This document shows, in pieces, positions 3,626-38,041 of a DNA stretch of 40,295 nt. Position numbers and translations under genes: made by a program. Within the stretch, counting starts at the first letter, position 1. Each line of letters begins with the position of its first letter. Source of the DNA: a bacterium (GTDB taxonomy: Bacteria > Oederibacteriota > CAKKQC01). Location: NCBI GenBank assembly GCA_919901855.1, contig CAKKQC010000002.1, positions 1 through 40,295 on the forward strand. Reading direction: 5' to 3'. The notes under the pieces are model-generated. The model worked only from the letters and a program-made list of their open reading frames with translations, was not told where the DNA came from and ran no database searches.

Positions 3626-3631
3626 GTCCCC

Positions 3632-3637
3632 ATGGTA
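3632..3637 (-). promoter_or_regulatory. -10-like TACCAT before the 1646-3625 gene
   Basis: TACCAT reads on the minus strand 6 nt before the GTG start at 3625. At that distance transcription would begin at or next to the start codon. Confidence 0.45.
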
Positions 3638-3662
3638 CCGCGACTCCCGGGACGGGGCCGCG

Positions 3663-3668
3663 TATGCT
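3663..3668 (+). promoter_or_regulatory. -10-like TATGCT before the GT-C gene at 3676
   Basis: TATGCT lies 7 nt before GTG 3676. It overlaps the alternative ATG at 3664, which argues that GTG 3676 is the real start. Confidence 0.45.
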
Positions 3669-3675
3669 GGAAGCC

Positions 3676-5934
3676 GTGGGCACGCCGCTCCTCGTCCTCG
3701 GCTGGACCGCGCTCGTCCTCGCGAACTACCTCGCCGGACATCCCTGGGTCTGGAACGCCGACTGGCTCGCCAAGGCCGTCATCCCGCCCTGCGTGCCGTG
3801 GCGCGCTCCGCTGGGCGCCGAGCGCGCGCTCGCCCTCGCGCGGGCCGCGGCCCTGGTCGCGGTCTGGGCCGCCGGCGTCTTCGCCGCGGGCCACCGCTTG
3901 GGGGCGCTGGTCCGGTGTCCCGCCGAGGAGGGACCGATCCGGCTCCTGCTGGGGCTCGGCCTCGCGGCCCTCGGCTGGCTCGGGCTCGGGCTCGCGGGGC
4001 TCTGGTTCCCGCGCGTGGGCTGGGCGGGCGTGGCCGCGGGGGCGGCCGTCTGGATCGTCATCCACGGCCGGCGGGCGCTCGCGGGAGCGGTCCGGGTTCG
4101 GCCGGGGTGGTGGATGCTCCTCCTGCTGCCCATGATCTGGGTCACGCTCGCGGGGGCGACCAGCCCCGAAACCGAGCTGGACCCCGTCCGCTACCACCTC
4201 GGCCTGCCCGAGCGGTTCGCCCGGGCGCACCGGATCCTCGTGCCCGAGCGCAATATCTTCGCCTCGTTTCCGCTGAACGTCTCGATGCTGTACGGCTCGC
4301 TCGAGCTGTGCGGGGGGGCGGAGGCGGCGAAGCTCTTCAACTGGTCCCTGCTCTGGGCCGGAAGCTGGTTCGCGTTCACCTTCGCGGGGGGCGGCGCGGC
4401 GGGCCGGCTCGCGGCGCTGGCGTGGACCGCGGTGCCCGTCGTCTGGGTCCACGGTGCGATGGGGTTCGCGGAGCTGGCCGTGACGGCCTTCGAGTGCGGC
4501 GCGCTCCTGCTGCTCGTGGCCGGCGTCGCGCGGGGCGGCGGGTCGAGCCGGCTCGGCGCGGTCTCGGGCATCCTGGCCGGGTTCGCGCTCGGGTGCAAGT
4601 ACCAGGCGGTACACGCGGTCGTGCCGCTGTTCGTGCTCTGGGTCGTGCTGGGCCGGCGGTGGACCGCCCCGGCGGCTTTCGCCGCCGGTGCTTCGTCCGC
4701 CGTCCTGCCGTGGCTCGTCAAGAACTGGCTCTGGATGGGCAACCCCGTGCACCCGATCTTCTCGGGGCGCTGGCCCGATCTCGAGGACGCCTCCGCGGCG
4801 CTGGCGGCCTCGCGGTTCCGGCCGGAGGAGGTGCTGGGCGGTGGAGACCTGAGCCACGCGTTCGCCTCTCCGTGGACGGTCGGGCTTGTGTCCGATCGTC
4901 TCAACACCTACCCGTTCGGTCCCATCCTCCTGCTCTCGCTGCCATGGCTCGTGGCCGGGCTTGCGGGTAGGGCGGCGTCGCTGGCCTGGTACGCGGTCGG
5001 GTTCGTGGCGGCCTGGGGCGCGACGACGGCGGGGTGGGGCCGGTACCTGATCGGGGCCCTGCCCGCGTGGTTCGCGGTCGCCGCGGTGGCCGCGCGGCGG
5101 ACCGACGCGGCTCTTCCGGCGACCGCGCGCGTCTTCGCGCGCGCGGGGGCAGCGGCCGCCATCGCGGCCGGCTGGGCGCTGGGCGCCTCCGTGATCTTCC
5201 AGCGGCAGAACCCGCTCGAGGTGGCCTGCGGGTGCGTGCCCGCCGACCGGTCGCTGGTCTGGCGGATCAGCCCGCCGCGCCACGCGCTGCCCTCGCTGCG
5301 CGCCCTCTGCGACAGGATCGCCCCGGGGCGGCGCTTCTACGCGTACGGGCGCGCGACGGTCGCGTACGTGCCGCGCGAGTGGCACTGCGACTACGAGCAC
5401 GACACGCCGCTCTTCCAGCGGCTGATCAAGGCGTCGCGCGACCCTGCGGACCTGCGCAAGCGCTTCCGCCAGCGCGGCCTCGACGCGTTCTACTACGACC
5501 TCGCCGGCGGGGTGACGTTCGCCGAGGTCGGTGGAATGCTGCCGTGGACGGCGCGCGAGATCGCGCTGTGGCAGGAGTTCCTCCGGCAGTACGGCGAGCT
5601 CGCCGTCCGCGACGAGGTCGAGGGCGAGAACGTCGCGCTCTACGGGTACGTCCTGAGGCGGGCTCCCGAGGCGGCGGCGCGGCTCCCGCGGGGGACGGTC
5701 TGGCCGCACCTGCCGGGGCTCGAGCGGGCGCTCGTCGAGGGAGACCGCATCCACGCGCGCGGCGATCTCGAGGGCGCGCGGCGGTACTACGAGGCCGCGG
5801 CGGCCGTCCTGCCCGGGTACGCGTGGGTCCACCAGCGGCTCGCCGAGGTGGCCCGGGCGCTGCGCCGTCCTGCTGATGCCGCCGGCGCCGAGGCGGCGGA
5901 GGCGGAAGCCGCCTTGCGCCGGCTCGGCGGCTGA
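3676..5934 (+). CDS. GT-C-type membrane protein with soluble domain and TPR-like tail (paralog A)
   Basis: About 750 aa. Hydrophobic segments fill roughly residues 1-520. The first big loop carries D169-x3-Y-H174 within an ETELD...YHLGLPE context, and a later segment reads PWLVKNWLWMGNPVHP; both recur in five other proteins of this window. This layout fits lipid-linked-sugar glycosyltransferases (GT39/PMT-like GT-C fold). The soluble part (about 540-690) has the family's RFRQRG element, and a C-terminal TPR-like helical pair (about 700-745) ends the protein. It lacks the K-(N/D)-D loop motif of its relatives (FAELA instead). The start is taken as GTG 3676 because of the TATGCT at 3663; ATG 3664, four codons earlier and in frame, is the alternative. 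Acceptor and sugar are not predictable. Confidence 0.75.
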   Translation: MGTPLLVLGWTALVLANYLAGHPWVWNADWLAKAVIPPCVPWRAPLGAERALALARAAALVAVWAAGVFAAGHRLGALVRCPAEEGPIRLLLGLGLAALGWLGLGLAGLWFPRVGWAGVAAGAAVWIVIHGRRALAGAVRVRPGWWMLLLLPMIWVTLAGATSPETELDPVRYHLGLPERFARAHRILVPERNIFASFPLNVSMLYGSLELCGGAEAAKLFNWSLLWAGSWFAFTFAGGGAAGRLAALAWTAVPVVWVHGAMGFAELAVTAFECGALLLLVAGVARGGGSSRLGAVSGILAGFALGCKYQAVHAVVPLFVLWVVLGRRWTAPAAFAAGASSAVLPWLVKNWLWMGNPVHPIFSGRWPDLEDASAALAASRFRPEEVLGGGDLSHAFASPWTVGLVSDRLNTYPFGPILLLSLPWLVAGLAGRAASLAWYAVGFVAAWGATTAGWGRYLIGALPAWFAVAAVAARRTDAALPATARVFARAGAAAAIAAGWALGASVIFQRQNPLEVACGCVPADRSLVWRISPPRHALPSLRALCDRIAPGRRFYAYGRATVAYVPREWHCDYEHDTPLFQRLIKASRDPADLRKRFRQRGLDAFYYDLAGGVTFAEVGGMLPWTAREIALWQEFLRQYGELAVRDEVEGENVALYGYVLRRAPEAAARLPRGTVWPHLPGLERALVEGDRIHARGDLEGARRYYEAAAAVLPGYAWVHQRLAEVARALRRPADAAGAEAAEAEAALRRLGG

Positions 5935-5971
5935 TCCCGCCCGCCGCCGGGCATGGCATACTAATGGAATC

Positions 5972-7384
5972 GTGACACCGTCCACGGCGTCTCCCGCCCC
6001 CGACCTGACCCTGGTCCTGGCCTGCTACCACGAGGAGGCGATCCTCGAGGCGTCCGTCCGCCGTATCATCGGCACGCTCGAGGCGACCAGGTGGAACTGG
6101 GAGATCGTGTTCGTGGAGGACGCGTCGCGCGACCGGACCCGGGAGTTGCTGGGGCGGATCCTGGACGAGCGGCGGGACCCGCGCCTGCGAACCATCCTGC
6201 ACGAGCGGAACATGGGCCGGGGCCGGACCGTGGCCGACGGCTTCCGGGCCGCGCGCGGCGCGGTCGTGGGTTTCATCGACGTGGATCTCGAGGTGGGACC
6301 CGAATACATCCTGCCGTGCGTGCAGGCGATCCGCGACGGCGCCGACGTCGCGGTGGGCCGGCGCGTGTACAAGTTCTCGATCCGGGGGCTGTGGCGGTAC
6401 GCGCTGTCGACCGGTTACGCGCGGCTCGTGCACTCCCTCCTCCCGTCGAGCGGCGTCTCGGACACGGAGTCCGGGTACAAGTTCTTCCGGCGGGAAACCG
6501 CCCTGATGCTGATCGATCGCGTGACGGATCCCGGGTGGTTCTGGGACACGGAGATCATGTGCCGGGCCGCCGAAGCGGCCTGCCGCGTGGCCGAGGTGCC
6601 CTGCCTTTTCCAGCGTGACTTCCGCAAGCGGTCGACCGTGCGCGGCGTCCACGACAGCCTCGTGTACCTCGGGCGCCTGGCGGCGTTCCGGCGGACGCTG
6701 GCCGCGGAGACCCGGCTGCGGGCGTCGGACTCGTTCTGGCGCGAGCGGGCGGACGCTTTCGCCGACCACTACGCCGCCCGCGGGCCTTTCGTCCGGTTCG
6801 TGCGGTCGTTCCTCGGCCGCCGGGAGGCGCTGCTCGAACGCTGGCTCCGTGCCGCCCCGGGGACCCGGGTGCTCGAGGCCGGCTGCGGCCATGGGCCGGC
6901 CCTGGTCTCCCTCGTCGCGCAGGGGGCGCAGGTCACGGGGCTCGACGTGTCGGAGGCGATGCTCGAGCGCGCCCGGCACACCCTCGAGGCGGCCGGGAGC
7001 CGGGGGCACACGCTCCTCTGCACGTCCGTCGAGACCGCGGACCTGCCGGCGGAGTCCTTCGACCTCGTCCTCGCCGTCGGCCTCCTGGACTACCTCGTCG
7101 GGTGGCGGGAGGCGTTCCGGCGGCTGGTGGGCTGGACGAAGCCCGGCGGCCAGCTCATCGTCACGATCCCGAAGCGGCCCAGCCCCTTCGGGTTTCTGCG
7201 CCGCGGGCCGGGGCTCATGCTCCGCCGCGTCCTGTTCGACCTGCCGCCGATCGTGACCGCGGTGACGCGCGAGGAACTCGAGGACGCCGCGCGGGAGGCG
7301 GGCGTGCGACTCGACGAGGTCGCGTCCTGCCAGGGGACGATGTGGGCCGTCCGGGCGACCAGGCCGGTGGCGGGGCATCCTTGA
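5972..7384 (+). CDS. Fused GT2 glycosyltransferase / SAM methyltransferase
   Basis: A 470-aa two-domain protein. Residues about 8-225 are a GT-A family 2 domain of the dolichol-phosphate-mannose-synthase type: FVEDASRDRT for the nucleotide loop, the metal-binding D103-V-D105, and SDTESGYKFFRRE near the acceptor side. Residues about 250-465 are a class I SAM-dependent methyltransferase with motif I VLEAGCGHG at 300-308, GLDVS in motif II and a PGG post-II turn (KPGGQL). There is no hydrophobic anchor. The GT2 half could load a polyprenyl phosphate for the neighbouring GT-C enzymes, and the methyltransferase could modify the same glycan (inference). The start is GTG 5972, 9 nt after a CATACT element. 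The stop overlaps the TTG start of the next gene. Confidence 0.85.
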   Translation: MTPSTASPAPDLTLVLACYHEEAILEASVRRIIGTLEATRWNWEIVFVEDASRDRTRELLGRILDERRDPRLRTILHERNMGRGRTVADGFRAARGAVVGFIDVDLEVGPEYILPCVQAIRDGADVAVGRRVYKFSIRGLWRYALSTGYARLVHSLLPSSGVSDTESGYKFFRRETALMLIDRVTDPGWFWDTEIMCRAAEAACRVAEVPCLFQRDFRKRSTVRGVHDSLVYLGRLAAFRRTLAAETRLRASDSFWRERADAFADHYAARGPFVRFVRSFLGRREALLERWLRAAPGTRVLEAGCGHGPALVSLVAQGAQVTGLDVSEAMLERARHTLEAAGSRGHTLLCTSVETADLPAESFDLVLAVGLLDYLVGWREAFRRLVGWTKPGGQLIVTIPKRPSPFGFLRRGPGLMLRRVLFDLPPIVTAVTREELEDAAREAGVRLDEVASCQGTMWAVRATRPVAGHP

Positions 7385-8589: not shown

Positions 8590-8649
8590 TGCCGCAGTCG
8601 GTGAGGTGGCGGACACGCTGACCGCGGCCCGGCCGGCAGGCCCCAGCCG

Positions 8650-11139: not shown

Positions 11140-11145
11140 TAGCAT
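11140..11145 (+). promoter_or_regulatory. -10-like TAGCAT before the 11155 gene
   Basis: TAGCAT is 9 nt before ATG 11155 in a 60-bp gap after paralog B, so this gene probably has its own near-leaderless promoter. No convincing -35 is seen. Confidence 0.4.
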
Positions 11146-14418: not shown

Positions 14419-14424
14419 ATTATA
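14419..14424 (-). promoter_or_regulatory. Consensus -10 box TATAAT for the small secreted protein gene
   Basis: TATAAT on the minus strand lies between the dapF stop and the small secreted gene, 32 nt from ATG 14386. This leaves a leader of about 25 nt carrying the strong GGAGGAGGA site. No good -35 is found at 17-18 nt; a TTGACG lies 26 nt upstream, which is too far for the usual spacing. Confidence 0.6.
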
Positions 14425-15835: not shown

Positions 15836-15891
15836 CCTGTCTCCCGCCTCCCTGCGGTCACGGACATCCTAACGCCGGGGGAGGCCGGTTT

Positions 15892-17217: not shown

Positions 17218-17223
17218 AGTATA
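17218..17223 (-). promoter_or_regulatory. -10-like TATACT before thiO
   Basis: TATACT on the minus strand ends 13 nt before ATG 17204. The same AT-rich spot reads TATAGA on the plus strand, but the plus-strand gene has its own box nearer its start. Confidence 0.45.
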
Positions 17224-17251: not shown

Positions 17252-17281
17252 TTGCCTCTCCGTCGCGCCGCCGGGTAGAGT
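17252..17281 (+). promoter_or_regulatory. Promoter of the TPR/HD-GYP/GT-C operon
   Basis: TTGCCT (17252-17257), an 18-bp spacer, and TAGAGT (17276-17281), which ends 9 nt before ATG 17291. The hexamers are sigma-70-like, with the same 18-bp spacing as the promoters at 37439 and 38002. Confidence 0.5.
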
Positions 17282-23806: not shown

Positions 23807-26106
23807 ACGGGGGCTACTGGATCTGGATCGCGGTGGCCGCCGGCCTCTTCGTCGCGCGTTGGTGGCCGGCCCTCCGCACCGCCCTGCCGGACCCGGCCGG
23901 GTGGCACGGGCTCGCGGACCAGGCGGCCGGAGCCGCGGTCCGGCAGTCTCTTGCCCAGGCGGCCGCCGTCGTTCTCACCGCCGCCGCCGTCCTGGGCACG
24001 GCGGGGCCGGGCGGTCCAGTCGCGCGCTGGCTCCGGTTCCGCGGAGCCGGGCTGGTCCGCGGCCTCGCGCGGACCGGTCTCGGACTGGCCGTGGTGTCTC
24101 CCGCCGCGCTCGCGCTCGGGCTCGCGGGGCTCGCGCATCCGGTCCTCGCCGTCCCGGCCGCCGCCGCGCTCGTGATCGCGGGCTTCCGGGTGTCCCCGGC
24201 CCTCGCCCGGGGCGCGCGTCCCGCGTGGCCCCTGATCCTCGCGGCGCTCGTGCTGGTTCCCGTGGCCGTGGTTCCCGACCTCGAGGTGGACAGCCTGATC
24301 CAGCACCTCGCGTTGCCCGCCGGGTGGGTGCGGGCCCACCGGATCTTCGCGCGGCCCGATCTTTCGGTGGGAGTCCTCTGGCCGGGGCGCGAAGTCCTGG
24401 GCTGGCCCGGCCTCGCGCTCGGGTCCGAGCCCGCCGCCGTGCTCCCCAGCCTCGGGTGCGCCGGCCTGGCGGGGGCCGCCGCGTCCGCGGCGGGCTCCGG
24501 GGGCTGGTGGGTGGGCGCGGCGGTGCTCGCGTCCCCGCAGCTCGCGGTGGTCGCGTGCTCGGCCAAGAACGACTCGCTCGCGATCGCGCTCGTTTCGGCC
24601 GGCCTCGTCAGCGCTCGCGCCAATGGCGGCGCCGGGGGCGCGGCGGCCGCCGCGGTGGCGGGGGTTCTGGCGGGCGCGGCGGTCGCCGCGAAGTCCACGG
24701 CCGCCATCGCCGTGCCGGCCTTCCTCGCCGTCCTGCTCGCCGCCCGCGGTCCATCCGGCCGCCGTAGCCGGGCCGGCTGGTTCCTCGCCGCCGCCGCGGG
24801 CGTCTCCCTGCCCTGGGCCGTCCGGAACTGGCTCGACCTCGGCAACCCGGCCGCGCCGCTCCTCTCGGGGATGATTCCGACGCTCGGATGGGACCCGGTC
24901 CGCGCGGAGCTCGCGGCCCGGTATGTCCGCACGTGGAGCGATCTGGACCCTGAGTCGGTTCTCGGCGGGGTGGCGGCCCTCGTCCGGATCCTGGGCGGGT
25001 TCAACCTCCTCTGCGGGGCCGCCGTTCTCGTGCTCCCGTTCTCGGTGTCTTCGCTGTCCCGGACCGGGCGCGCCGGCCTTTTCGCGGCTGCCGGCGTCCT
25101 GCTCTGGCTCTCGTCCCTGGCCTGGGTCTCCCGGTACCTCCTGCTCTTCCTGCCCGCCCTGACCGCGGCGGCGGCGGCCCTGCTCGTGGCGCGGGCCGGC
25201 GCGGCGGTGGTCAACCGGTGGGCGGCCGCGTCGGCCGTTCTCGGGCTCGTGGTCGCGCTGGGCGCGGGAGGGGGCGCGCGGCCGGTGCCGTGCGCCTTGG
25301 GGCTGGAGAGCCGGGCGCACTTCGCCGCCCGGGCGCAGGGCGTCTTCGGGGAGATGGCCCGCGAGGTCGCGGCGCGCGTCGCTCCTGGCGCGCGCGCCCT
25401 CACGGTCGGCGAGTGGCGGGCGGATCCCGCGGGCCGGCTCCTGCCCTGCGCGCCCGTGGACCGGCCCGCCATCTGGGCGCTCGCCCGCGAGGCGGATTCC
25501 GGGGGGCGGATGCGCATCCGGTTGCGGCAGCAGCGGGTGTCGCACCTCCTCTTCAACCTGCCGCAGGCCGGGTTCTGGGCCGACTACGCGGCGCGGTCGC
25601 CGTGGACGCCGGGGGCGGTCGCGCGCTGGGGCGGGTTCTGGGATGCTTCGGCCACGCTCGTCTGGCGGTCGGCGGCCCAGGATCCCGTCCTGGGATTCTT
25701 CCTCCTCTACCGGCTCTCGCGGGGGCCGGGGGAGGAGCCGGCCCGGGGCTGGTTGCCGGGCACCGAGGGCGAGTTCCTTGAGGTTCGCCGGTTGGCGGCG
25801 CGATCGGCCGGCGATCCCGCGGTCGACCGCGAGTTCACCCGGCTGGACGCGCTCTTCGGCCCGCGCGCGGACGTGCTGGCGCGGCGCGGGTGCCTGCTGG
25901 CCGCTCAAGGCCGCTATCCCGAGGCGCTGGCCGCGTTCCGCCTTGCGACCCGGGCGGCGCCGGAGGCGCGGCCGGTCTGGTCGTCCTATGGAGCGGTCCC
26001 GATCCGGACCGCGGCGGAGCTTCTCCGGTACGCGCGCGCGCGACCGGACGTGGTGAACGCGGGCTTCATGCTGGGTATCCCGGTCGCATTGGCGGCCGTA
26101 TACTGA
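23803..26106 (+). CDS. GT-C-type membrane protein with soluble domain and helical tail (paralog D)
   Basis: 767 aa, beginning with a GTG that shares GTGA with the previous stop. Membrane helices reach about residue 500. The conserved loop is D163-S-L-I-Q-H168, so the Tyr of D-x3-Y-H is Gln here while the His is kept. Later come SAKNDSLAIAL and PWAVRNWLDLGNPAAP. The soluble part matches paralog C closely (RLRQQRVSHLLFNLPQAGFW, WDASATLVW, FFLLYRLSRGPGEEP, GWLPGTEGEF), pointing to tandem duplication of C and D. The C-terminal tail is helical and ends in a segment like that of C (DVVNAGFMLGIPVAL compared with DVVNMGFTMGIPVAL). Probably a lipid-linked-sugar glycosyltransferase. Confidence 0.78.
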   Translation: MNGGYWIWIAVAAGLFVARWWPALRTALPDPAGWHGLADQAAGAAVRQSLAQAAAVVLTAAAVLGTAGPGGPVARWLRFRGAGLVRGLARTGLGLAVVSPAALALGLAGLAHPVLAVPAAAALVIAGFRVSPALARGARPAWPLILAALVLVPVAVVPDLEVDSLIQHLALPAGWVRAHRIFARPDLSVGVLWPGREVLGWPGLALGSEPAAVLPSLGCAGLAGAAASAAGSGGWWVGAAVLASPQLAVVACSAKNDSLAIALVSAGLVSARANGGAGGAAAAAVAGVLAGAAVAAKSTAAIAVPAFLAVLLAARGPSGRRSRAGWFLAAAAGVSLPWAVRNWLDLGNPAAPLLSGMIPTLGWDPVRAELAARYVRTWSDLDPESVLGGVAALVRILGGFNLLCGAAVLVLPFSVSSLSRTGRAGLFAAAGVLLWLSSLAWVSRYLLLFLPALTAAAAALLVARAGAAVVNRWAAASAVLGLVVALGAGGGARPVPCALGLESRAHFAARAQGVFGEMAREVAARVAPGARALTVGEWRADPAGRLLPCAPVDRPAIWALAREADSGGRMRIRLRQQRVSHLLFNLPQAGFWADYAARSPWTPGAVARWGGFWDASATLVWRSAAQDPVLGFFLLYRLSRGPGEEPARGWLPGTEGEFLEVRRLAARSAGDPAVDREFTRLDALFGPRADVLARRGCLLAAQGRYPEALAAFRLATRAAPEARPVWSSYGAVPIRTAAELLRYARARPDVVNAGFMLGIPVALAAVY

Positions 26107-26113
26107 GACCGCG

Positions 26114-27082
26114 ATGAAGTGCCTCGCGCTGATGTCCGGCGGACTCGACTCGTTCCTCGCGATCAAGGTGATCCAGGAACAGGGGATCGAGGTGCTCGCG
26201 CTCAACTTCCAGACGCCGTTCTGTTCGGCCGCGGGACGTTCGGCCTCCTGCGGCGACGCGGTGGCCCTCGCGGGGGCGCAGCAGATCGACCTGCGCGTCC
26301 AGTTCCTCGGTGCTGAGTTCCTCGACCTCGTGGCCCACCCCCCGCACGGGTGGGGGCGGAACATGAATCCGTGCATCGACTGCCGCATCCTCATGCTCCG
26401 GCGGGCGAAGGCGCTCCTCGAGCCCTCGGGCGCCTCGTTCGTGATCACGGGGGAAGTGGTCGGCCAGCGTCCGATGTCCCAGCACCTGGCCGCGATGCGC
26501 ACCGTCGAGGCGGAAAGCGGGCTCGAGGGACTGCTGGTGCGGCCGCTCTCCGCGAAGCTGCTGCCACCCACGATTCCGGAAACGAAGGGGTGGGTGGACC
26601 GCGAGCGCCTGCTGGATCTCCGGGGACGGAGCCGGAAGGTCCAGCTCGCGATGGCGAAGGCGCTCGGGCTCGAGTATCCGCCGACCCCGGCCGGCGGCTG
26701 CCTGCTCACGGACCCCGCGTACGCGGCGCGGCTGCGGGACGTGCTCGGGCACGCCGGGGGCCTGACCGCGCACCTCGCGCAGGCGGTCCGGTTCGGCCGG
26801 TACGTCCGGCTCTTGCCCGCGTCGTTCCTGATGGTGGGACGCAACGAGCGCGACAACGCCGCGCTCGAGGGGCTGCAGGCCGCGGACGAGTGGATCCTGC
26901 GGCCCGTGAACTGCGTGGGGCCCGTGGTCCTCGGCGTCGGTCCGCTCGACGAGGGGTCGCGCGCGCACGCGGCTGGTCTCCTCGCCCGGTACGCGGACGC
27001 GCCCGCCGATGGCCGGGTCGAGATCGAAGCCAGGCTTGGGCCCGCGGGCGAGGCGGTCCGGCTCGAAGGCCGCAAGCCGTGA
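26114..27082 (+). CDS. ThiI-like PP-loop ATPase, putative tRNA thiolation enzyme
   Basis: 322 aa. The N-terminal PP-loop is ALMSGGLDSFLAIK. NMNPCIDCRILMLRRAK supplies a CxxC pair that may hold sulfur or a metal, and VITGEVVGQRPMSQ and RPLSAKLLPPTIPE follow; PTPAGGCLLTDP adds a third conserved Cys. This matches the ThiI/MnmA-related proteins of about 320 aa that lack the THUMP domain and are usually annotated as tRNA thiouridine synthases. The last 100 residues form a separate small domain. It sits between GT-C genes, overlapping the next one by GTGA, although its sulfur chemistry fits better with the larE-desulfurase-mnmA group 5 kb downstream. Confidence 0.8.
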   Translation: MKCLALMSGGLDSFLAIKVIQEQGIEVLALNFQTPFCSAAGRSASCGDAVALAGAQQIDLRVQFLGAEFLDLVAHPPHGWGRNMNPCIDCRILMLRRAKALLEPSGASFVITGEVVGQRPMSQHLAAMRTVEAESGLEGLLVRPLSAKLLPPTIPETKGWVDRERLLDLRGRSRKVQLAMAKALGLEYPPTPAGGCLLTDPAYAARLRDVLGHAGGLTAHLAQAVRFGRYVRLLPASFLMVGRNERDNAALEGLQAADEWILRPVNCVGPVVLGVGPLDEGSRAHAAGLLARYADAPADGRVEIEARLGPAGEAVRLEGRKP

Positions 27083-29559: not shown

Positions 29560-32060
29560 CGGCGGCGCGGCGCGGCGCGGTCTTCCTCGCGTGGCTGGCG
29601 GCCGGCGCCTGGGCGACCCGCGACGTCTGGGCCCGGTGGCAGGCCGCGTTCCGGGGCCTGCTGGCGGGGCTCGCGGACTCTCCGCCGGAGAGCGCCGGCA
29701 TACTGGGTCACGCGCTCGCGGGCCACGCGGCCGCCGCCGGCGGGCTGGTGGCGCTCCTCGCCGCGGCGGTCGCCGCCGGGGGGCTCCCGGCCCGGTGGGC
29801 GGGGATGTACCGCGGCGGCCCTTCGGGCGGCGGCGCCCCGGGCGGCGGGGCCGCGGACCGGCTCGCGTGGCAATGGCTGGCGGGGTGGGGCGTGCTGTCG
29901 CTCGCCGGGTTCGCCTTGGGGCTGACGGGCCTCCTGCGCGGCCCCGTGCTGGCCGCGGCCGCCATCGCGGTCCCCGCGGCGGGACTGCGCGGCCTGTGCC
30001 GGGGAGCTCGTGCCGTCGGCCGGCCCTCCCCCGGACTCCCCGTGATCCTCCTCGGTCTGGTCCTCCTCGCGGGCTTCCTCCTCACCCGGCTGCCGAGCAC
30101 GCACGAGGACCCCATGGTCTACCATTTCGCGGCGCCGGAGGAGTACCTGCGCGCGGGACGGATCCACGCGGAAGTCACGCACATCCAGTGGACGATGCCG
30201 CTCGGACTCGAGATGCTCTACCTCGTGCCGTGGTGGGTCGCCGGGATCACGGCGGCCAAGCTCGTGAACCTCGGGATGATCCTGACCGCGTGTCTCGCGA
30301 TCCGCGGGATCGCGGCGGCGCTTGGCGGTCCGGGCGTCTGGGCAGCCTTCCTCTTCGCCTCGGCGGGGCTCGTCGGGAACCTGCTCTGGCAGGGCAAGAA
30401 CGACCTCGCCTGCGCCGCGTTCGCGGCCGGAGCGGGGCTGGGCGTCGCCCGGGCGCTCGCCGGCCGGTCCGGGGGATGGCTGGCGGCAGGCTGGTGCGCG
30501 GGTTGTGCGGTCGCGTGCCGGCTGACCGCGGGCGTGACCATGGTCCCGCTCGCCGTGGCGGCCCTCGTCGTCGCCGGTCACCGGGTACGCCCGATCGCCG
30601 CCGTGTCCGGCGTCATTGCGGGTCTCGCGGCATGCGGGCCATGGCTCGTCCGGAGCTGGCTCGATGCCGGGAACCCGTTCACGCTCTTCGCCTCCGGGAT
30701 CTTCCCGGATCTCGCGTGGTCGCCGTTCCTCCAGGCCGCGCTGCGCCACTACACGCTCCTGCTCTCGAGCGCGGGTCCGTTCCATCCGTCCGACCTGGTC
30801 ATGGGCGCCTGGCATGTCCTGGGGGTGGCCGAGATCGGGTCCCTGGCGCTCCTCGTGCTGGGCGGCCTGGGGCTGGTGGCGGTCCGGGGAACCACGGGTA
30901 CGGCTCTCCGGATCGCGATGGCGTCCGCCTACGTGATCTGGCTGCCGACCGAGCGCAACCCGCGGTTCCTCCTGCCGCTCGTCCCGTGGGTCGCGGCGTT
31001 CGCGGCCTGCGCCGCGTTCGCCGGCGGGGACGCGCGGTCCAGGACCGGCAGGATCGCGGCTGCCGCCCTCGTGCCCCTGGGCGTCGCCGCCGCGGGAGCC
31101 GCGCTCGTGCACGCCGGCGCGCTCGCCTCGCCGGACGGCCCCGCCGTCTGGACCGGCATGGCCGGTCCCGACGCGGTGCGCCGGCGGCAGAACACGACGG
31201 CCGAGACGACGCGCCGGTGGGTGAACGCCGCGCTGCCGGGGGACGCCCGCCTGCTGCTCACGGGCGGGGCGAAGCGCCTCGGGTTCGCGCGCCGGGTGAT
31301 GAGCACCGGCCCGATCGGGATGCCGCCGTTCTGGGTCCTGACGCACGAGACCTCGACCCCTGCGGAGATGCGCAAGCGGCTCCGACAGCGCGGCGCGACC
31401 CACTGGATGCACAACTTCATCGAGGGGGAGTTCCGGGGGCTCGGCTGGTACCCCGGCCCCAAGTGGGACGAGCGCCAGCTCGCGCTCGGCGTCGAGTTCA
31501 TGCGGCGGTATGCCCGGCCGGTCCGGGCGCCCGAAGCCGTCGACCACGAGGGCGGGGGCTACTGGGTGTTCGAGCTAACGAGAGCGCCGGGCGGGTTCCC
31601 GCCGATGTTCCTGCCCGGGACCGAGGGGCGGCTCAAGGCCGCGTTCGACCTCCGGGATGCCGGCGACGCCGGGGGCGCGTTCGGGGAGGCGGGACGGCTG
31701 GCGGGGCCGGCCGTCGAACTGCTCGAGGTGCAGGCGATCATGGCCACCTTCGCCCTGCAGGCGCGGCAGGCGGCGACCTCCTACAAGTGGTTCGCGCCCG
31801 GCGTGCGCGCGGGCTACATCGGCGACGGGAACCTGGACTACTTCGCCGCGACCGAGGTCATGCTGGGGCGGCCCGATGCGGCGGTGCGCGACGCCGCCCG
31901 GGCCGCGCGGGTCTTGGGGCCGGATCGCCGGCTACTGGCCCGCGCGCTCCAGGACCGCGCCCGGGCCCGCGCCGGCCGCGGGGACCGCGCGGGGGCGGCT
32001 CGCGACTCGGCGGAGGCCGCCCGGTGGTGGCGCGGGGCACGCCTGGCGGGCGGCGGCTGA
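29556..32060 (+). CDS. GT-C-type membrane protein with TPR-like tail (paralog F)
   Basis: 834 aa; GTG start sharing GTGA with the previous stop. D185-P-M-V-Y-H190 gives the complete loop motif, followed by WQGKNDLACAAF and PWLVRSWLDAGNPFT. The soluble domain reads KRLRQRGATHWMHNFIEGEFRGLGWY, then VDHEGGGYWVFELTRAPG, FLPGTEGRLKAAF and a helical tail (about 700-834). It ends the overlapping gene run; two strong hairpins follow. Together with E it is the clearest recent duplicate in the window, and it is the copy with intact motifs. Confidence 0.8.
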   Translation: MTAARRGAVFLAWLAAGAWATRDVWARWQAAFRGLLAGLADSPPESAGILGHALAGHAAAAGGLVALLAAAVAAGGLPARWAGMYRGGPSGGGAPGGGAADRLAWQWLAGWGVLSLAGFALGLTGLLRGPVLAAAAIAVPAAGLRGLCRGARAVGRPSPGLPVILLGLVLLAGFLLTRLPSTHEDPMVYHFAAPEEYLRAGRIHAEVTHIQWTMPLGLEMLYLVPWWVAGITAAKLVNLGMILTACLAIRGIAAALGGPGVWAAFLFASAGLVGNLLWQGKNDLACAAFAAGAGLGVARALAGRSGGWLAAGWCAGCAVACRLTAGVTMVPLAVAALVVAGHRVRPIAAVSGVIAGLAACGPWLVRSWLDAGNPFTLFASGIFPDLAWSPFLQAALRHYTLLLSSAGPFHPSDLVMGAWHVLGVAEIGSLALLVLGGLGLVAVRGTTGTALRIAMASAYVIWLPTERNPRFLLPLVPWVAAFAACAAFAGGDARSRTGRIAAAALVPLGVAAAGAALVHAGALASPDGPAVWTGMAGPDAVRRRQNTTAETTRRWVNAALPGDARLLLTGGAKRLGFARRVMSTGPIGMPPFWVLTHETSTPAEMRKRLRQRGATHWMHNFIEGEFRGLGWYPGPKWDERQLALGVEFMRRYARPVRAPEAVDHEGGGYWVFELTRAPGGFPPMFLPGTEGRLKAAFDLRDAGDAGGAFGEAGRLAGPAVELLEVQAIMATFALQARQAATSYKWFAPGVRAGYIGDGNLDYFAATEVMLGRPDAAVRDAARAARVLGPDRRLLARALQDRARARAGRGDRAGAARDSAEAARWWRGARLAGGG

Positions 32061-32061
32061 A

Positions 32062-32124
32062 GCCGCCGCGCACCGCGTCTGCGGTGCGAAGGCGGCGAAG
32101 CCGCCCAAGGCCGCTCCTGCGGCC
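32062..32124 (+). terminator. Hairpin pair after paralog F
   Basis: The first hairpin is CGCACCGC-GTCT-GCGGTGCG (32069-32088) inside an outer GCCGCC/GGCGGC stem (32062-32067, 32091-32096). The second is GGCCGC-TCCT-GCGGCC (32109-32124). There is no U-tract, so termination would be weak or factor-assisted; they may instead be REP-like repeats. Confidence 0.5.
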
Positions 32125-32151
32125 CGGGCACCAGTGGCCCCTGACGGTTGT

Positions 32152-32157
32152 TATAGT
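32152..32157 (+). promoter_or_regulatory. -10-like TATAGT before larE
   Basis: TATAGT ends 12 nt before ATG 32170 and only 3 nt before GTG 32161. An RNA from this box would start around 32163-32165, so ATG 32170 is the better start. Confidence 0.45.
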
Positions 32158-32169: not shown

Positions 32170-32979
32170 ATGACGCCCCGTTCCGATACACCCCACGACC
32201 GCCTTCGCGCCATCCTCCGGGAGATGGGCAGCGTCCTCGTCGCCTACTCCGGCGGCGTCGACTCCGCCCTGCTCCTCAAGGTGGCCACGGACGTGCTCGG
32301 GGACCGCTCACTCGGGGCGCTCGGGGTCTCGCCGAGCCTTTCGGCCGAGGAACTCGCGTGCGCGCGCCGGGTTGCGGCTTCGATTGGCGCGCGTATGCGC
32401 GAGATCCCGACGCGCGAGTACGAGGACGAACGGTACGCGGCCAACCCCCCCGAGCGGTGCTACTTCTGCCGCGGCGGCCTCTACGACCTGCTCGCCCCGA
32501 TCGCGAAGGCCGAAGGATTCGCGGGGATAGCGAACGGGTTCCAGCTCGACGACGAGGGCGACTTCCGGCCGGGCCAGCGCGCGGGCCGCGAGCGCGGGGT
32601 GAGGTCGCCGCTCGCCGAGGCGGGGTTCCACAAGACGGACGTCCGCGTGCTCGCCCGCGAGCTCGGGGTCCCGGTATGGGACAAGCCCGCGGCCCCGTGC
32701 CTGGCGTCGCGCGTCGCGTACGGCGTCCGCGTGACCCCGGAGGTCGTCGAACGGGTGGCCGAGGCCGAGCGCCGGGTTCGGGCGCTGGTCCCGGGGCTCC
32801 AGGATCTCCGGGTCCGGCACCTGGGCGGCGGCGAGGCCCGCGTCGAGGTGGAGCCCGGCCGGCTCGCTGCGGTCGAGGCCGCGCGCCCGGGCGTCGAGGC
32901 CGCGCTCCGCGATCTCGGGTATGCGACCGTCTCGGTCGCCGGCTACCGGCGGGGCGCCCTGCTCCCCGCCCGGGAGTAG
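32170..32979 (+). CDS. larE: LarE-type ATP-dependent sulfur transferase
   Basis: 269 aa. The PP-loop S27-GGVDS-32 is in VAYSGGVDSALLLKVA. ANPPERC97YFCRGGLYDLL holds the Cys that, in the lactate-racemase system, is sacrificed as sulfur donor to the nickel-pincer cofactor precursor. DKPAAPCLASRVAYG is also a LarE signature. larB and larC are not nearby; instead a cysteine desulfurase follows after 3 bases, so this copy may receive sulfur from that enzyme instead of sacrificing its own (inference). GTG 32161 in the same frame is an alternative start. Confidence 0.88.
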   Translation: MTPRSDTPHDRLRAILREMGSVLVAYSGGVDSALLLKVATDVLGDRSLGALGVSPSLSAEELACARRVAASIGARMREIPTREYEDERYAANPPERCYFCRGGLYDLLAPIAKAEGFAGIANGFQLDDEGDFRPGQRAGRERGVRSPLAEAGFHKTDVRVLARELGVPVWDKPAAPCLASRVAYGVRVTPEVVERVAEAERRVRALVPGLQDLRVRHLGGGEARVEVEPGRLAAVEAARPGVEAALRDLGYATVSVAGYRRGALLPARE

Positions 32980-32982
32980 CGG

Positions 32983-34152: not shown

Positions 34153-34157
34153 GAACC

Positions 34158-35246
34158 GTGGGAGACCGGGTCGTCGCCGCGATGTCCGGCGGCGTCGACT
34201 CCTCCGTCGCCGCCGCCCTCCTCGTCGAGGCCGGCCACGAGGTCGTCGGGATCACGATGCGGGTCCTGGCCTGCGAGGCGGACGGAAGCCGCGCTCCGGA
34301 GGCCCTCCAGAGCCAGCCGTGCTGCACGGCGGCCGACGTCGAGGATGCGCGCGCGGTGGCCGCGCGACTCGGCATCAAGCACTACGTCATGGACCTCCGG
34401 GACGAGTTCCGCCATGCCGTGCTCGAGCCGTTCCTGGCCGCGTACGCGGCGGGCCGGACGCCCCTGCCCTGCGCGGCCTGCAACCACGTGCTCAAGTTCG
34501 GGGCGCTCGTGCGGAGGGCGGACGAACTGGGCGCCGCCGCCGTCGCCACCGGCCACTATGCCCGGATCGAGCCGGGCGAGAGCGGCCGGTTCCGGCTCCT
34601 GCGAGCGCACGAGTGCGCCAGGGACCAGAGCTACTTCCTCTACGGGCTGACGCAGCCACAACTGGCGCAGACGCGGTTTCCGTTGGGGGACATGACCAAG
34701 GACGCCGTCCGCGGGAAAGCCCGGTCGCTCGGCCTTTCCGTCGCCGACAAGCCGGACAGCCAGGAAATATGCTTCATCCCCGGCGGCGACACCGCGGGAT
34801 ACCTCAAGGCCAACCTCGGGGAGAAGCCTGGCCCCATCGTGGATACGGCCGGGCACCGGCTGGGGGAGCACCTGGGCGTGCACTTCTACACCATTGGCCA
34901 GCGGCGGGGGCTCGGGCTCTCCGGCGAGGGGCCGTGGCACGTGGTCTCGCTCGACGCCGCGGCAAAGACGGTCGTCGTGGGACGGGCCCCCGACCTCCTC
35001 TCGGCCGGATGCGAGGTCGAGGCCGTGACGTGGACGGGGGAGCCGGCGACGGGCGAGATCGGGGTCAAGATCCGGTCCCGGCATGGGCCCGTCCCCGCGA
35101 CCGTCGCGGCCACTTCCTGTGGCCCGGTCACGATCCGGTTCGCCGAGCCCCAGCGGTCGGTGACCCCGGGCCAGGCCGCCGTCTGCTACCGCGCCGACGA
35201 GTGCCTCGGCGGGGGGACGATTGCGGGTAAGATGGGGCAGGTATGA
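34158..35246 (+). CDS. mnmA: tRNA-specific 2-thiouridylase MnmA
   Basis: 362 aa. The PP-loop is S10-GGVDS-15. C108 ([10 protein letters not shown]) and C205 ([10 protein letters not shown]) correspond to the two catalytic cysteines. [15 protein letters not shown] and [11 protein letters not shown] are all typical. The enzyme puts sulfur on C2 of U34 in Lys, Glu and Gln tRNAs. GTG 34158 is preceded by AGGAACC. Its 3' end from 35113 on has a second, 96% identical copy at 37487-37614 (see the 75-bp comparison in findings), so the present C-terminus may have been brought in with the island that starts at the stop codon. Confidence 0.95.
35228..35233 (+). promoter_or_regulatory. -10-like TAAGAT before the 35243 gene
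   Basis: TAAGAT lies inside the last codons of mnmA, 9 nt before ATG 35243. This tail is where the two mnmA 3' copies diverge, so the box could have arrived with the island. Confidence 0.35.
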
Positions 35247-35488
35247 ACACGCCGATGTCCCGGGACCTTCTCGCCGATCCGAAGCCCCGGTTGAACCGTA
35301 GAATCCAGACCGAGGTTCTGGCCCGGATGGCGCCTGGCGAGCGCCTTCGTCAGGCCCTCGAGCTGTCCGAGTTCACCCGCGGGCTCTTCCGTCACGGCCT
35401 GCGCGCCCGGTTCCCGGCCCTCCCGGAGGCCGACCTCCACCGGCTCTACCTCGACCGGCTCGCGAAGTGTCACAACAGGAACTACTGA
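35243..35488 (+). CDS. Small helical protein of unknown function
   Basis: 81 aa, charged and mainly helical ([28 protein letters not shown], then [17 protein letters not shown]). Short proteins with an ARMxPxERLRxALELSxF layout are often found just upstream of nucleotidyltransferase-like genes in many genomes, which is the arrangement here. No activity is known to me. ATG 35243 overlaps the mnmA stop (ATGA); the 3' end overlaps the next fragment by 22 bases. Confidence 0.65.
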
Positions 35489-35655
35489 CCGCGCTGGCGG
35501 CCTTCCTCGAATCGGAGGGCATTCCACACTTCGTCACCGGATCCATCGCTTCGAGCCTGCAGGGGGAACCACGCGCGACCCATGACATCGATCTCGTCGT
35601 CGCGTTGCCGGAAGCGGCCATCGCGAAGATGGCGGCTGCCTTTGACCCGGATTGA
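35467..35655 (+). pseudogene. Truncated nucleotidyltransferase-fold protein
   Basis: 62 codons from GTG 35467. HFVTGSIASSLQGEPRATHDIDLVV is the start of a minimal nucleotidyltransferase domain (G-S and D-x-D motifs), usually followed by 100 or more residues. Here a TGA ends it at 35655, only 5 bases from the end of the convergent hicA-like gene. I read it as the stump of a gene cut when the toxin-antitoxin segment joined, though a short functional protein cannot be excluded. Confidence 0.6.
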
Positions 35656-35660
35656 CCTCA

Positions 35661-35885
35661 TCAGATCAGCTCGAGGAATTGCTCGCGGGTAATCCCGGCT
35701 TGCCGGAGGATTTCGCCGAATGTGCCGGGCGGAACAGGCCGGTTCCCCTTGTGACTGAGGCGAACCTGGAGGATCGCCCCGTTCGGGGCAATGCGTTCCC
35801 AGGTCTCGTGTTTGCGGCTGCGGATCAGGCGGAATTCCAGGCGCCGAAGCGCCCGGCGAACCTGGTCATACGTGTACGCGGCCAA
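35661..35885 (-). CDS. hicA: HicA-type toxin
   Basis: 74 aa with the double-stranded-RNA-binding-like HicA fold: helix TYDQVRRALRRLEF, then SRKHETWERI with the catalytic-type H26, RLSHKGNRPVPPGTF, and a C-terminal helix ILRQAGITREQFLELI. HicA toxins cleave mRNA and are held by HicB. No ATG is in frame; TTG 35885 preceded by GAGGTG is taken as start, overlapping the 3' end of hicB by 20 bases. This antitoxin-first order is the reverse of the commonest hicAB order. Confidence 0.8.
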   Translation of the reverse strand: MAAYTYDQVRRALRRLEFRLIRSRKHETWERIAPNGAILQVRLSHKGNRPVPPGTFGEILRQAGITREQFLELI

Positions 35886-36192
35886 ACCGCACCTCGATCA
35901 GCTCGCGCACGGCCCACTCGTTTTCGCATGCCGCGATCCGGTCGACGTACGGACGGTGGTGGGCGCGGTTGGGGCTCGTCGCGAACTCCTTGATCCTGCG
36001 GGTGTAATCCTCGGCGTATTCCCGGATCATCTCGATCATGGCCTGGATCGTCTCTTCCTGACGGTCCATCTCGGTCACGAGGTCCAGCTCGGGGCACCGG
36101 GCCATGAATCGGCCGTTGTCCTTCGCCACGAGGAGCGTGAGCAGGGGGACCTTGGTCTGGATGAGGGGCGGGGAAGCCGTGCGGGACTTCAC
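35866..36192 (-). CDS. hicB: HicB-like antitoxin
   Basis: 108 aa. LTLLVAKDNGRFMARCPELDLVTEMDRQEETIQAMIEMI is the partial RNase H-like HicB fold (strand-GRFMARCPEL-strand-helix), followed by a basic C-terminal extension instead of a clear helix-turn-helix or ribbon DNA-binding domain. It should neutralise the downstream HicA. The GTG start at 36192 lies 6 nt after a perfect TATAAT, which predicts leaderless mRNA. Confidence 0.75.
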   Translation of the reverse strand: MKSRTASPPLIQTKVPLLTLLVAKDNGRFMARCPELDLVTEMDRQEETIQAMIEMIREYAEDYTRRIKEFATSPNRAHHRPYVDRIAACENEWAVRELIEVRFGRVHV

Positions 36193-36198
36193 CCCGTG

Positions 36199-36204
36199 AT
36201 TATA
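36199..36204 (-). promoter_or_regulatory. Consensus -10 box TATAAT before hicB
   Basis: TATAAT on the minus strand, then CACGGG, then GTG 36192. The transcript would start at or within a base or two of the start codon. No clear -35 is seen. Confidence 0.6.
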
Positions 36205-36265
36205 CCCCGGTGAGACGGATCGGGAATGCGGGTGAAGGAGCGACCGGATGCCTCGGAGCGTCGCA

Positions 36266-36700
36266 TCAGCACCAGAGCCAGTGTCTGGCGTCGATCAGCC
36301 GCCTGAGCATCCGGTCCTCGCGGCGGGCGAAGGCGCGCTCCAGCCGGTTCAGCATCTGCCAGGCTTTCCGGTCCGTCCGTAGGACCTCGAGTCGGCTCCC
36401 GGTCCCGTCCGGCAGGGGGACCAGCCTGGTCTTGTGGCGGGCCGACCACCGGCGCAGGGCGCGATCGATCGCCTGCTCATCCCGGGGGCGCTCGATCTTC
36501 CAGTAGCGATAGAGGGCCCGGAGTTCCCGCCATTGGCGCCGCTGTGTCGCATCGTGTTCGTAGTCGACGATGGTCTGGGGCTTCTCCTGCTCCATGAAGT
36601 CCACGAGGAGCTGGAAGCAGGCGTAGACGAGCACCCGGTCCTTGTCGCACCACCGGCTTCCCGGCTTCAGCCCGCGGATGACGAGGACGTTCCCCTTCAC
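36266..36700 (-). CDS. Uncharacterised basic protein downstream of higA
   Basis: 144 aa, rich in Arg, Trp and Leu. KPGSRWCDKDRVLVYACFQLLVDFMEQEKP resembles small proteins of phage or genomic-island origin, but I cannot name a family. No membrane segment. GTG 36700 has AGGAG 12 bases upstream, and the gene starts 15 bases after higA, so it is probably transcribed with higBA. Base composition is visibly less GC-rich than in the flanking operons. Confidence 0.65.
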   Translation of the reverse strand: MKGNVLVIRGLKPGSRWCDKDRVLVYACFQLLVDFMEQEKPQTIVDYEHDATQRRQWRELRALYRYWKIERPRDEQAIDRALRRWSARHKTRLVPLPDGTGSRLEVLRTDRKAWQMLNRLERAFARREDRMLRRLIDARHWLWC

Positions 36701-36715
36701 GGAAGCGACGCGCTC

Positions 36716-37120
36716 CTATCCGACGAACACCGCGGGCGACACGCCGAACCGCCGGGCCAGCGCCCTGATCTGTCTCACGTTCAGCTCGCGCTTGCCGGCC
36801 AGAATCTCCGACACGATGCCCTGCGATCCGACCTCCTCCAGTTCCGCCTGCTTCAGGCCGTGCTCCTCCATGAGGAAGGCCAGGACATGGCGCGGCGCGG
36901 CCGCAGGAACCGGATGATGCCGCTCCTCCCATGCATGTACAAGCGTCGCCAGCGTATCCAGGAGCGCCGCCCGGGGATGACCCTCGTCGGAACCGACCTC
37001 GTCCACGAGCGCCTCCAGGATGCCCCTGGCACGCCGGTAGTCCGTCTCGGAGTCGATGGCCAGTAGACCCTCGAGTCGCTGCCACGCCATGTCCGTGCTG
37101 CGATCCAGGACCGGATTCAT
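36716..37120 (-). CDS. higA: HigA-type antitoxin with C-terminal helix-turn-helix
   Basis: 134 aa. The N-terminal half has helices (DYRRARGILEALVDEV, AALLDTLATLVHAWEE); the C-terminal half is an XRE helix-turn-helix: HVLAFLMEEHGLKQAELEEVGSQGIVSEILAGKRELNVRQI, split as helices around GSQGIVSEIL. It binds the HigB toxin and represses its own operon, probably at the palindrome 37420-37434. ATG 37120 overlaps the higB stop (ATGA) and has a GGGAGG/GGAAG site upstream. Confidence 0.88.
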   Translation of the reverse strand: MNPVLDRSTDMAWQRLEGLLAIDSETDYRRARGILEALVDEVGSDEGHPRAALLDTLATLVHAWEERHHPVPAAAPRHVLAFLMEEHGLKQAELEEVGSQGIVSEILAGKRELNVRQIRALARRFGVSPAVFVG

Positions 37121-37404
37121 CGCTTCCAACCTCCCCGGTCGTATTCCGCGTGTGTCAGGATCTCGCGGATGTAGACCTTCTCCCGGTTGAAGTGAACGGC
37201 CGCGATCAACCGGTACTTGTTGCCCCCGATGTTGAACACCACCTTGTTCCCCACCTGATCGGCGCTCGGGAACGTCCGTCGCACCTCGGCGAACGATCCG
37301 AACCTCGTCCTGCTCACGATGGCATACCACGCCACGAGGGCGCTCCTCGCGTCGCCATGCACCGCCACGAACTCGTTGATCCGCTTGCGCGAGATGACGT
37401 GCAT
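37117..37404 (-). CDS. higB: HigB-type mRNA interferase toxin
   Basis: 95 aa from ATG 37404. MHVISRKRINEF, SFAEVRRTFPSADQV, VVFNIGGNKYRLIAAVHF and the final ILTHAEYDRGGW are characteristic of the ribosome-dependent HigB family of RelE-fold endonucleases. A second in-frame ATG two codons earlier (37410) is possible, but family members usually begin at MHVISRK, and 37404 lies 10 nt after the -10 box like other genes here. The toxin gene comes first, overlapping higA by ATGA, which is normal for higBA. Confidence 0.9.
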   Translation of the reverse strand: MHVISRKRINEFVAVHGDARSALVAWYAIVSRTRFGSFAEVRRTFPSADQVGNKVVFNIGGNKYRLIAAVHFNREKVYIREILTHAEYDRGGWKR

Positions 37405-37414
37405 CGCCATTGCC

Positions 37415-37444
37415 AGCGTATCTCACGGTGAGATGTCTTGTCAA
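37415..37444 (-). promoter_or_regulatory. higBA promoter
   Basis: On the minus strand a perfect TTGACA (37444-37439), an 18-bp spacer, and TACGCT (37420-37415), 10 nt before ATG 37404. The spacer is filled by the operator palindrome. Confidence 0.7.
37420..37434. promoter_or_regulatory. Probable HigA operator
   Basis: ATCTCAC-G-GTGAGAT is a perfect 7+1+7 palindrome between the -35 and -10 boxes of higBA, touching the first base of the -10. Binding there would block RNA polymerase, the expected autoregulation. Confidence 0.65.
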
Positions 37445-37486
37445 CCACGTGTCCGGGACCCTGGAGGAGATGTGGGCGTGACCCCA

Positions 37487-37614
37487 CGTCCCGTGGCCGG
37501 GTGACGATCCGGTTCGCCGAGCCCCGGCGGTCGGTCACCCCGGGCCAGGCCGCCGTCTGCTACCGCGCCGACGAGCTCCCCGGCGGCGGCATGATCACTC
37601 GCACGTTGCGGTAG
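37487..37614 (+). pseudogene. Duplicate of the mnmA 3' end
   Basis: This stretch matches mnmA from 35113 onward. Over the 75 bases starting at the V-T-I-R-F codons only three differ, two of them silent and one changing Gln to Arg. The frame stays open from 37501 through [19 protein letters not shown] and CYRADEL to a TAG at 37612-37614, with a different last dozen residues. It has no start and no upstream part. It is either the displaced end of the resident mnmA or an attachment-site-like duplication. Confidence 0.85.
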
Positions 37615-37638
37615 GAGGCTTTAGTCGGCGAGCTCCGG

Positions 37639-37980
37639 TCAAGCCTGCCTTGGAGTACGCCTGCGCTGGGCGAGGGTTCTGACCATCTGCCGGACCGTAT
37701 CCCGCTCCGCGACGGACAGGTGTCCCACGGGGATCACGTACTGGGCGTGCTTGGATGTGGGACCCCCGGTCACGTCCTGAAACAGGACGGATAACGGGAT
37801 GCCAAGGGCGTCCGCGAGCCGGCCATAGGTCTCCAGCGAGCCCTTCCTGCGTGCGATTTCGAGAAACGAGAGGAACGATGCCGAGATACCCGCCCGTTCC
37901 GCCAATTCGCCCTGCGTGAGCCCTCGGCGATCCCGGAGCTCGCGCAGTCGTTTCGCGACTCTCGCGTACACGTCTTCCAT
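37639..37980 (-). CDS. XRE-family transcriptional regulator
   Basis: 113 aa. The N-terminal helix-turn-helix is VAKRLRELRDRRGLTQGEL followed by AERAGISASFLSFLEIARR and GSLETYGRLADALGIPLSVLF, the lambda-repressor-like five-helix fold. The C-terminal 40 residues are a short charged extension. Likely a dimeric repressor. ATG 37980 follows a TATGGT by 9 nt. It is divergent from the CsgG-like gene, and CCATA/TATGG repeats lie in the shared 61-bp promoter region. Confidence 0.88.
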   Translation of the reverse strand: MEDVYARVAKRLRELRDRRGLTQGELAERAGISASFLSFLEIARRKGSLETYGRLADALGIPLSVLFQDVTGGPTSKHAQYVIPVGHLSVAERDTVRQMVRTLAQRRRTPRQA

Positions 37981-37989
37981 CGGTCAATC

Positions 37990-38031
37990 ACCATAGGGGG
38001 CTTGACTTATGGATGGAACGGACCATAGGAT
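37990..38031. promoter_or_regulatory. Overlapping divergent promoters with CCATA/TATGG repeats
   Basis: Plus strand: TTGACT (38002-38007), 18-bp spacer, TAGGAT (38026-38031), then 10 nt to ATG 38042. Minus strand: TATGGT (37995-37990), 9 nt to ATG 37980. CCATA at 37991-37995 and 38023-38027 and TATGG at 38008-38012 form inverted and direct repeats over both promoters, good candidate sites for the XRE protein. Confidence 0.6.
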
Positions 38032-38041
38032 GTGCTTGGCC

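Follow-up and report, generated by a model that had tools for sequence, protein, structure and literature searches.

Predicted leaderless and near-leaderless transcripts from ordinary sigma-70 promoters in a high-GC candidate bacterial lineage

In Deinococcus-Thermus, TA-led genes, which make up roughly a third of genes, carry a TANNNT -10 element 6-7 nt from the open reading frame (PMC3160421; PMC12340547), with boxes at 6-7 nt in D. radiodurans in particular (PMC12340547). In Mycobacterium smegmatis, of 866 mRNAs with short leaders, 759 have their 5' end exactly at the start codon (PMC5741613). The draft genome of an uncultured bacterium considered here (G000; 4.68 Mb in 91 contigs) resembles Deinococcus-Thermus in having TANNNT boxes at 6-7 nt, a second class of genes led by a Shine-Dalgarno (SD) sequence, and an optional -35 element at 17 bp (PMC3160421; PMC12340547), but it belongs to a separate lineage, in a GTDB phylum to which Firestonebacteria and FCPU426 genomes are also assigned, and differs in that it has a distinct class of boxes at a gap of 9 nt (0 seen in a small sample from D. 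deserti and D. gobiensis) and in that close divergent gene pairs share one box. The phylum was recognized from three of its members, whose RpoB is identical to that of named Firestonebacteria and FCPU426 records; for the RpoB of the genome itself, the genome contigs searched gave matches of only about 55%. With Mycobacterium it has in common TANNNT boxes, some of them with a TGn extension, tolerance of GTG starts, and closely set divergent promoters (PMC3898074; PMC5741613); toxin-antitoxin genes, often leaderless in Mycobacterium and typically so in M. tuberculosis (PMC3898074), are likewise boxed here. Unlike in M. smegmatis, where short-leader mRNAs mostly have a leader of 0 nt (PMC5741613), about a quarter of the boxes predict a 3-nt leader, a class which looks unusual against both M. 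smegmatis and D. radiodurans, and a weak -35 element is detectable, whereas none was found in M. tuberculosis (PMC3898074). This is a known phenomenon in an apparently new lineage, with variant features, and we consider it very probable that the genes adjoining these boxes give leaderless or near-leaderless transcripts from ordinary sigma-70 promoters, beside a class led by SD sequences.

The window, by which we mean the whole stretch of 40,295 nt that was analyzed, is contig C2 of this genome and has a GC content of 73.3%. All 12 boxes named in a preliminary description of the window were found with the gaps given there (11 TANNNT hexamers, and CATACT at 5972, in which the first base is off), and one box not on that list, before ATG 26114, is added here. 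The boxes, and two leadered genes for contrast, are as follows, with the gap counted in nt from the box to the start codon and -10 assignments being predictions:

3632..3637, minus strand: -10 box TACCAT, gap 6 to GTG 3625(-); main gap class
3663..3668, plus strand: -10 box TATGCT, gap 7 to GTG 3676; overlaps the rival ATG 3664
5957..5962, plus strand: CATACT, one off consensus, gap 9 to GTG 5972 (glycosyltransferase/methyltransferase)
11140..11145, plus strand: -10 box TAGCAT, gap 9 to ATG 11155
17218..17223, minus strand: TATACT, gap 13 to ATG 17204(-) (FAD oxidoreductase); not in the main gap classes
17276..17281, plus strand: -10 box TAGAGT, gap 9 to ATG 17291 (TPR protein)
26099..26104, plus strand: -10 box TATACT, gap 9 to ATG 26114; absent from the earlier list
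32152..32157, plus strand: TATAGT, gap 12 to ATG 32170; not in the main gap classes
35228..35233, plus strand: -10 box TAAGAT, gap 9 to ATG 35243 (Rv0078B-like antitoxin)
36199..36204, minus strand: -10 box TATAAT, gap 6 to GTG 36192(-) (PHD-like antitoxin)
37415..37420, minus strand: TACGCT, gap 10 to ATG 37404(-) (HigB toxin); a gap without genome-wide enrichment
37990..37995, minus strand: -10 box TATGGT, gap 9 to ATG 37980(-) (HTH regulator)
38026..38031, plus strand: TAGGAT, gap 10 to ATG 38042 (secreted TPR protein); a gap without genome-wide enrichment
14419..14424, minus strand: -10 box TATAAT, set 32 nt ahead of ATG 14386(-), with GGAGGAGG; contrasting gene with a leader and an SD
15866..15871, minus strand: -10 box TAGGAT, set 30 nt ahead of ATG 15835(-) (OmpA/Pal-like), with a G-rich sequence resembling an SD; contrasting gene with a leader

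Four of the 12 boxes listed previously, those of 17204 (gap 13), 32170 (gap 12), and 37404 and 38042 (both gap 10), lie outside the main gap class and are weaker. The start at 26114 falls 7 nt past the end of the preceding gene and is probably a suboperonic leaderless start, and the TAAGAT box of 35243 sits within the 3' end of the upstream tRNA-thiouridylase-like gene. The contrasting class that the preliminary description had pointed out is also present, in that 14386(-) and 15835(-) have boxes 32 and 30 nt upstream together with G-rich SD-like sequence.

For the genome-wide comparison, 2.03 Mb of the 4.68 Mb (43%) were sampled, and starts were called blind to motifs by a simple codon-context model, rather than by Prodigal or from proteomics, with some small genes neither called nor scored. 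Starts were divided into divergent leaders, same-strand leaders with at least 120 nt of upstream space, intermediate same-strand starts, and operon-internal starts. We note that one contig of the genome, C8, yielded only 51 called genes in 159 kb, far below the density elsewhere, reflecting either unusual composition or a failure of the caller. A TANNNT at a gap of 5-13 nt precedes 110 of the 261 divergent leaders (42%; dinucleotide shuffles gave a mean of 14.8 and a maximum of 30), 23 of the 157 same-strand leaders (shuffle mean 5.0), and 58 of the 264 intermediate starts (shuffle mean 9.6), compared to 32 of the 576 operon-internal starts (5.6%; shuffle mean 10.6) and 2 of 828 decoy ATG/GTG codons inside genes, and 9-nt control windows farther upstream of divergent leaders contain it in about 4-5% of cases. 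The recurrence of the box, which had been argued for the window from a background of about 0.3% of positions, is thus not due to chance on motif-blind starts across 2.03 Mb, where 110 boxed divergent leaders compare with at most 30 in the shuffles. The background before leaders is slightly higher, at about 0.5% of positions (upstream A and T at 17% each). The excess before leaders over internal genes, the comparison named beforehand as a possible refutation, holds over the 43% of the genome sampled. Among the control replicons put through the same pipeline, Azospirillum plasmid DNA (67% GC) showed no box peak and a commoner SD; the intended positive controls, Rhodococcus pRHL1 and Deinococcus plasmids, were weak, with few genes and poor gene calls, and too small for a good comparison of gap classes, although D. 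deserti gave a small box peak at gaps 6-8.

A mixture model, seeded with the generic textbook TGNTATAAT and a flat position prior, places a box at a gap of 5-10 nt in about 44% of divergent leaders (114 sites, versus 4.8 on shuffled input), and learned the motif TGgTAtaAT. In non-divergent leaders, where the fits are poorer, it places boxes in 21-28%. Because on operon-internal genes and with each of the three control plasmid sets the model moved away to other motifs, only the fit to the divergent class is used with confidence. Roughly half of the divergent leaders have no adjoining box, and the earlier wording that boxes precede "most" operon-leading starts was too strong.

Across all starts, the TANNNT counts at gaps 5-13 are 13, 57, 46, 22, 50, 8, 10, 12, and 11, with sharp peaks at gaps 6, 7, and 9, a low value at 8, and values near background at 10-13; the range of 6-13 proposed earlier therefore holds for 6-7 and 9 but not for 10-13. 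GTG starts account for 14 of the 57 sites at gap 6 and 6 of the 50 at gap 9. At gap 6 the initiator reads C(-1)/A(+1), and gap 7 fits a transcription start at nt 8 past the box. Gap-9 sites show the same pattern past the box as gap 6, with a purine at nt 1 in 86%, C at nt 6 in 58%, and a purine at nt 7 in 78%; a YR step falls at nt 6/7 in 26 of the 50 (p = 8e-10), that is, as an initiator 3 nt before the ATG. The most serious competing explanation is that at gap-9 sites the -10 to +1 spacing is longer and transcription starts at the AUG itself, or that the excess of these sites is in part sampling noise, as might be suspected from the YR step also found at the AUG (62%) and from the comparison of gap 9 with gap 8, which gives 39 versus 15 in the first 1.24 Mb and a modest 11 versus 7 in the later 0.8 Mb. 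With the match to gap 6 at nt 1, 6, and 7 set against these points, we regard this explanation as unlikely, though well short of negligible. Misplacement of what are really gap-6 starts was also considered for the gap-9 class and rejected, as a start codon is hardly ever present at gap 6 of these sites. We thus favor, with moderate confidence on account of the weaker excess in the second data split, a discrete class with a 3-nt leader rather than a leader of zero, and we infer that leaders of 0 and 3 nt are used, with those of 1-2 and of 4 or more nt disfavored.

The boxes also have the anatomy of a sigma-70 promoter. At positions outside the selection criterion, box position 5 is A in 65% and the center reads tAA; the extended -10 positions are T and G in 34% and 61%, respectively, with TGn in 27% versus 6% expected; and a faint TTGaC-like -35 lies upstream, with 10 TTGACA-like matches at a spacer of 17 and 12 at 18 (22/147) compared to 1-4 at most other spacers, and a further 12, unexplained, at a spacer of 12. 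This combination of a TATAAT-like -10, TGn, and a weak TTGACA-like -35 at 17 ± 1 bp indicates that the boxes behave as sigma-70 -10 elements.

Boxed and unboxed leaders further differ in their translation signals, with an SD in 10% of the former (7% in the control window) versus 24% of the latter (Fisher p = 7e-5), and unboxed leaders with an SD have a box 20-50 nt upstream in 34% of cases, versus 11% at 70-100 nt. The two translation-start classes suggested for the window, one with the box adjoining the start and no SD and the other with a box 20-50 nt upstream and an SD, are therefore recovered across the sampled part of the genome. As the 16S rRNA 3' end carries the canonical anti-SD CCTCC and a six-domain S1 protein is encoded, SD translation coexists with the boxed class. 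In the mechanism that we propose, RNA polymerase would start about 7 nt past the -10 box of an ordinary sigma-70 promoter abutting the gene, such that at gap 6, and at gap 7 via the eighth nt past the box, the mRNA would begin at the start codon, while at gap 9 it would begin exactly 3 nt ahead of it. These leaderless or near-leaderless mRNAs without an SD would be translated by recognition of the start codon at the 5' end, and the second class, comprising operon-internal genes and some leaders, would have leaders of about 20 nt or longer with an SD.

In a genome of the same family but another genus (G001; 70% GC), 8 of the 17 divergent leaders are boxed. Orthologues of boxed genes keep a box at 5-10 nt in 8 of the 11 testable cases (0-4 for control motifs), despite changed surrounding sequence, whereas a box occurs in 3 of the 35 cases where the orthologue in the first genome has none. 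The orthologue of the 17291 gene, for example, has TACGAT at a gap of 7 from its ATG, two codons from the orthologous start (TAGAGT at gap 9 in the window). In five genomes from other families of the phylum (GC 41-60%, 60-120 kb each), a box at a gap of 5-9 was found in 10% of 167 leaders versus 8% of control windows, compared to 23% versus 2.5% by the same measure here. Provisionally, given the small samples, the trait seems to be family-specific and to accompany high GC, as it does in Actinobacteria and Deinococcus. The absence of the signal from the sampled lower-GC families suggests an independent origin and fits the view that leaderless genes are associated with high GC.

These data bear on the remaining explanations of the boxes. 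They could be real -10 elements whose true start codons lie farther downstream, with ordinary leaders and a coincidental adjoining ATG, and the starts from our caller are indeed uncertain: for a few genes a candidate start also exists farther downstream (3664/3676 and 32170/32224), and in the window the caller picked ATG 3664, which falls within the TATGCT box, for the 3676 gene, and another start for the 32170 gene. Against this, the gaps cluster at 6, 7, and 9 without spread, decoy ATG/GTG codons inside genes lack boxes, boxed genes lack an SD, orthologous proteins start at equivalent residues while the box has shifted together with the start, and Pfam domains begin 3-12 residues past the box-adjoining starts (Obg at residue 3, QueC at residue 9), and we consider such misplacement very unlikely. 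More improbable still is that the AT-rich motif is a translation signal, either an enhancer or an unstructured ribosome site: although it occupies the usual place of the SD and is anti-correlated with it, TGn and a -35 at sigma-70 spacing accompany it, and it is seldom found ahead of operon-internal genes, which have to be translated but require no promoter. Finally, that starts were picked beside chance boxes in AT-richer intergenic DNA, a concern insofar as the window list was chosen by eye and AT content is higher between genes than inside them, is refuted by the shuffle comparison and the Azospirillum control, and retains practically no probability. The preferred reading of leaderless transcription, as first predicted for the window, is thus supported by the class contrast, the -10/-35 anatomy, the lack of SD sequences, and the conserved box beside orthologous starts, all features of the DNA from which the 5' ends are predicted.

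In E. coli, bidirectional promoters are described in PMC12825309 with start sites 10-23 bp apart and, where the -10 is symmetric, a common or overlapping -10 element, as is also predicted here. The median spacing of divergent genes is 85 nt, with 28% at 15-60 nt. Several pairs 18-20 nt apart enclose a single 7-mer TANNNTA, which can be read as a box from either strand; others, 23-28 nt apart, have ANNNTANNNT between them. Examples of the TANNNTA arrangement are:

C38:94297, both strands: TANNNTA between QueC-like and SDR genes
C10:22827, both strands: TANNNTA between a divergent pair
C12:63073, both strands: TANNNTA between lyase (fumarase-like) and Obg genes

If the starts may be shifted, 6 close pairs contain TANNNTA and 5 contain ANNNTANNNT, compared to 0-2 for rearranged motifs in each case, with C6:118929 counted under both. 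The C8:53905/53933 pair has overlapping boxes in the same-family genus as well. The starts of several shared-box genes are supported by Pfam domains that begin at residues 3-12. These close pairs thus share a symmetric -10, as expected of a bidirectional promoter, and the predicted start-site spacing of 18 bp (TANNNTA) or 23 bp (ANNNTANNNT) is inside the 10-23 bp reported in PMC12825309. Unlike the bidirectional promoters as characterized in that source, both products are predicted to be leaderless and the start codons are only 18-28 bp apart, so that any -35 must fall within the neighboring gene. Some close divergent pairs seem to share one tiny promoter that would fire both ways. A stronger combined proposal, that the lineage uses leaders either of 0 nt or of exactly one codon (3 nt), avoiding 1-2 and 4 or more, and also drives divergent housekeeping pairs (fumarase-like/Obg, QueC-like/SDR) from one shared 7-bp symmetric -10 in a space of 18-20 bp, is put forward tentatively, as we judge it rather more likely to fail in some part than to hold entire.

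If true, the 0-or-3 rule would suggest a mode of initiation in which a single codon ahead of the AUG is counted off, for instance with the 5' end located in the E site of the ribosome. The class with 3-nt leaders and the boxes shared between two directions together bear on how ribosomes choose start codons at 5' ends and on the minimal size of a working promoter. More broadly, the data point to large-scale leaderless expression in a candidate lineage beyond Actinobacteria and Deinococcus-Thermus, with consequences for start-codon annotation, as SD-seeking gene finders misplace starts in such genomes.

Several further features of the window are worth recording. Positions 35243-38322 form a toxin-antitoxin-like cluster (an Rv0078B-like antitoxin, a PHD-like antitoxin, a HigB toxin with its HTH partner, and an HTH regulator), and all of its toxin-antitoxin-like genes have boxes near the start. 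By eye, 37500-37590, past the HigB promoter region, resembles 35130-35215, where the tRNA-thiouridylase-like gene (34158-35246) has its 3' end, an apparent partial duplication. The gene at 32170 gives a weak NAD_synthase-like match and appears LarE-like by eye; divergent from it, ARAGORN places a 94-nt tRNA-Glu(ttc) on the minus strand at 32041-32134, overlapping the end of a plus-strand gene. About 1 kb within positions 1-1600 also occurs on contigs C34 and C57 at 92-93% identity, and positions ~1090-1600 belong to a dispersed repeat family, with pieces of 100-270 bp on many contigs at 69-97% identity. At 39317-40295, a gene for a secreted protein with near-identical PKD-like repeats continues beyond the end of the window.
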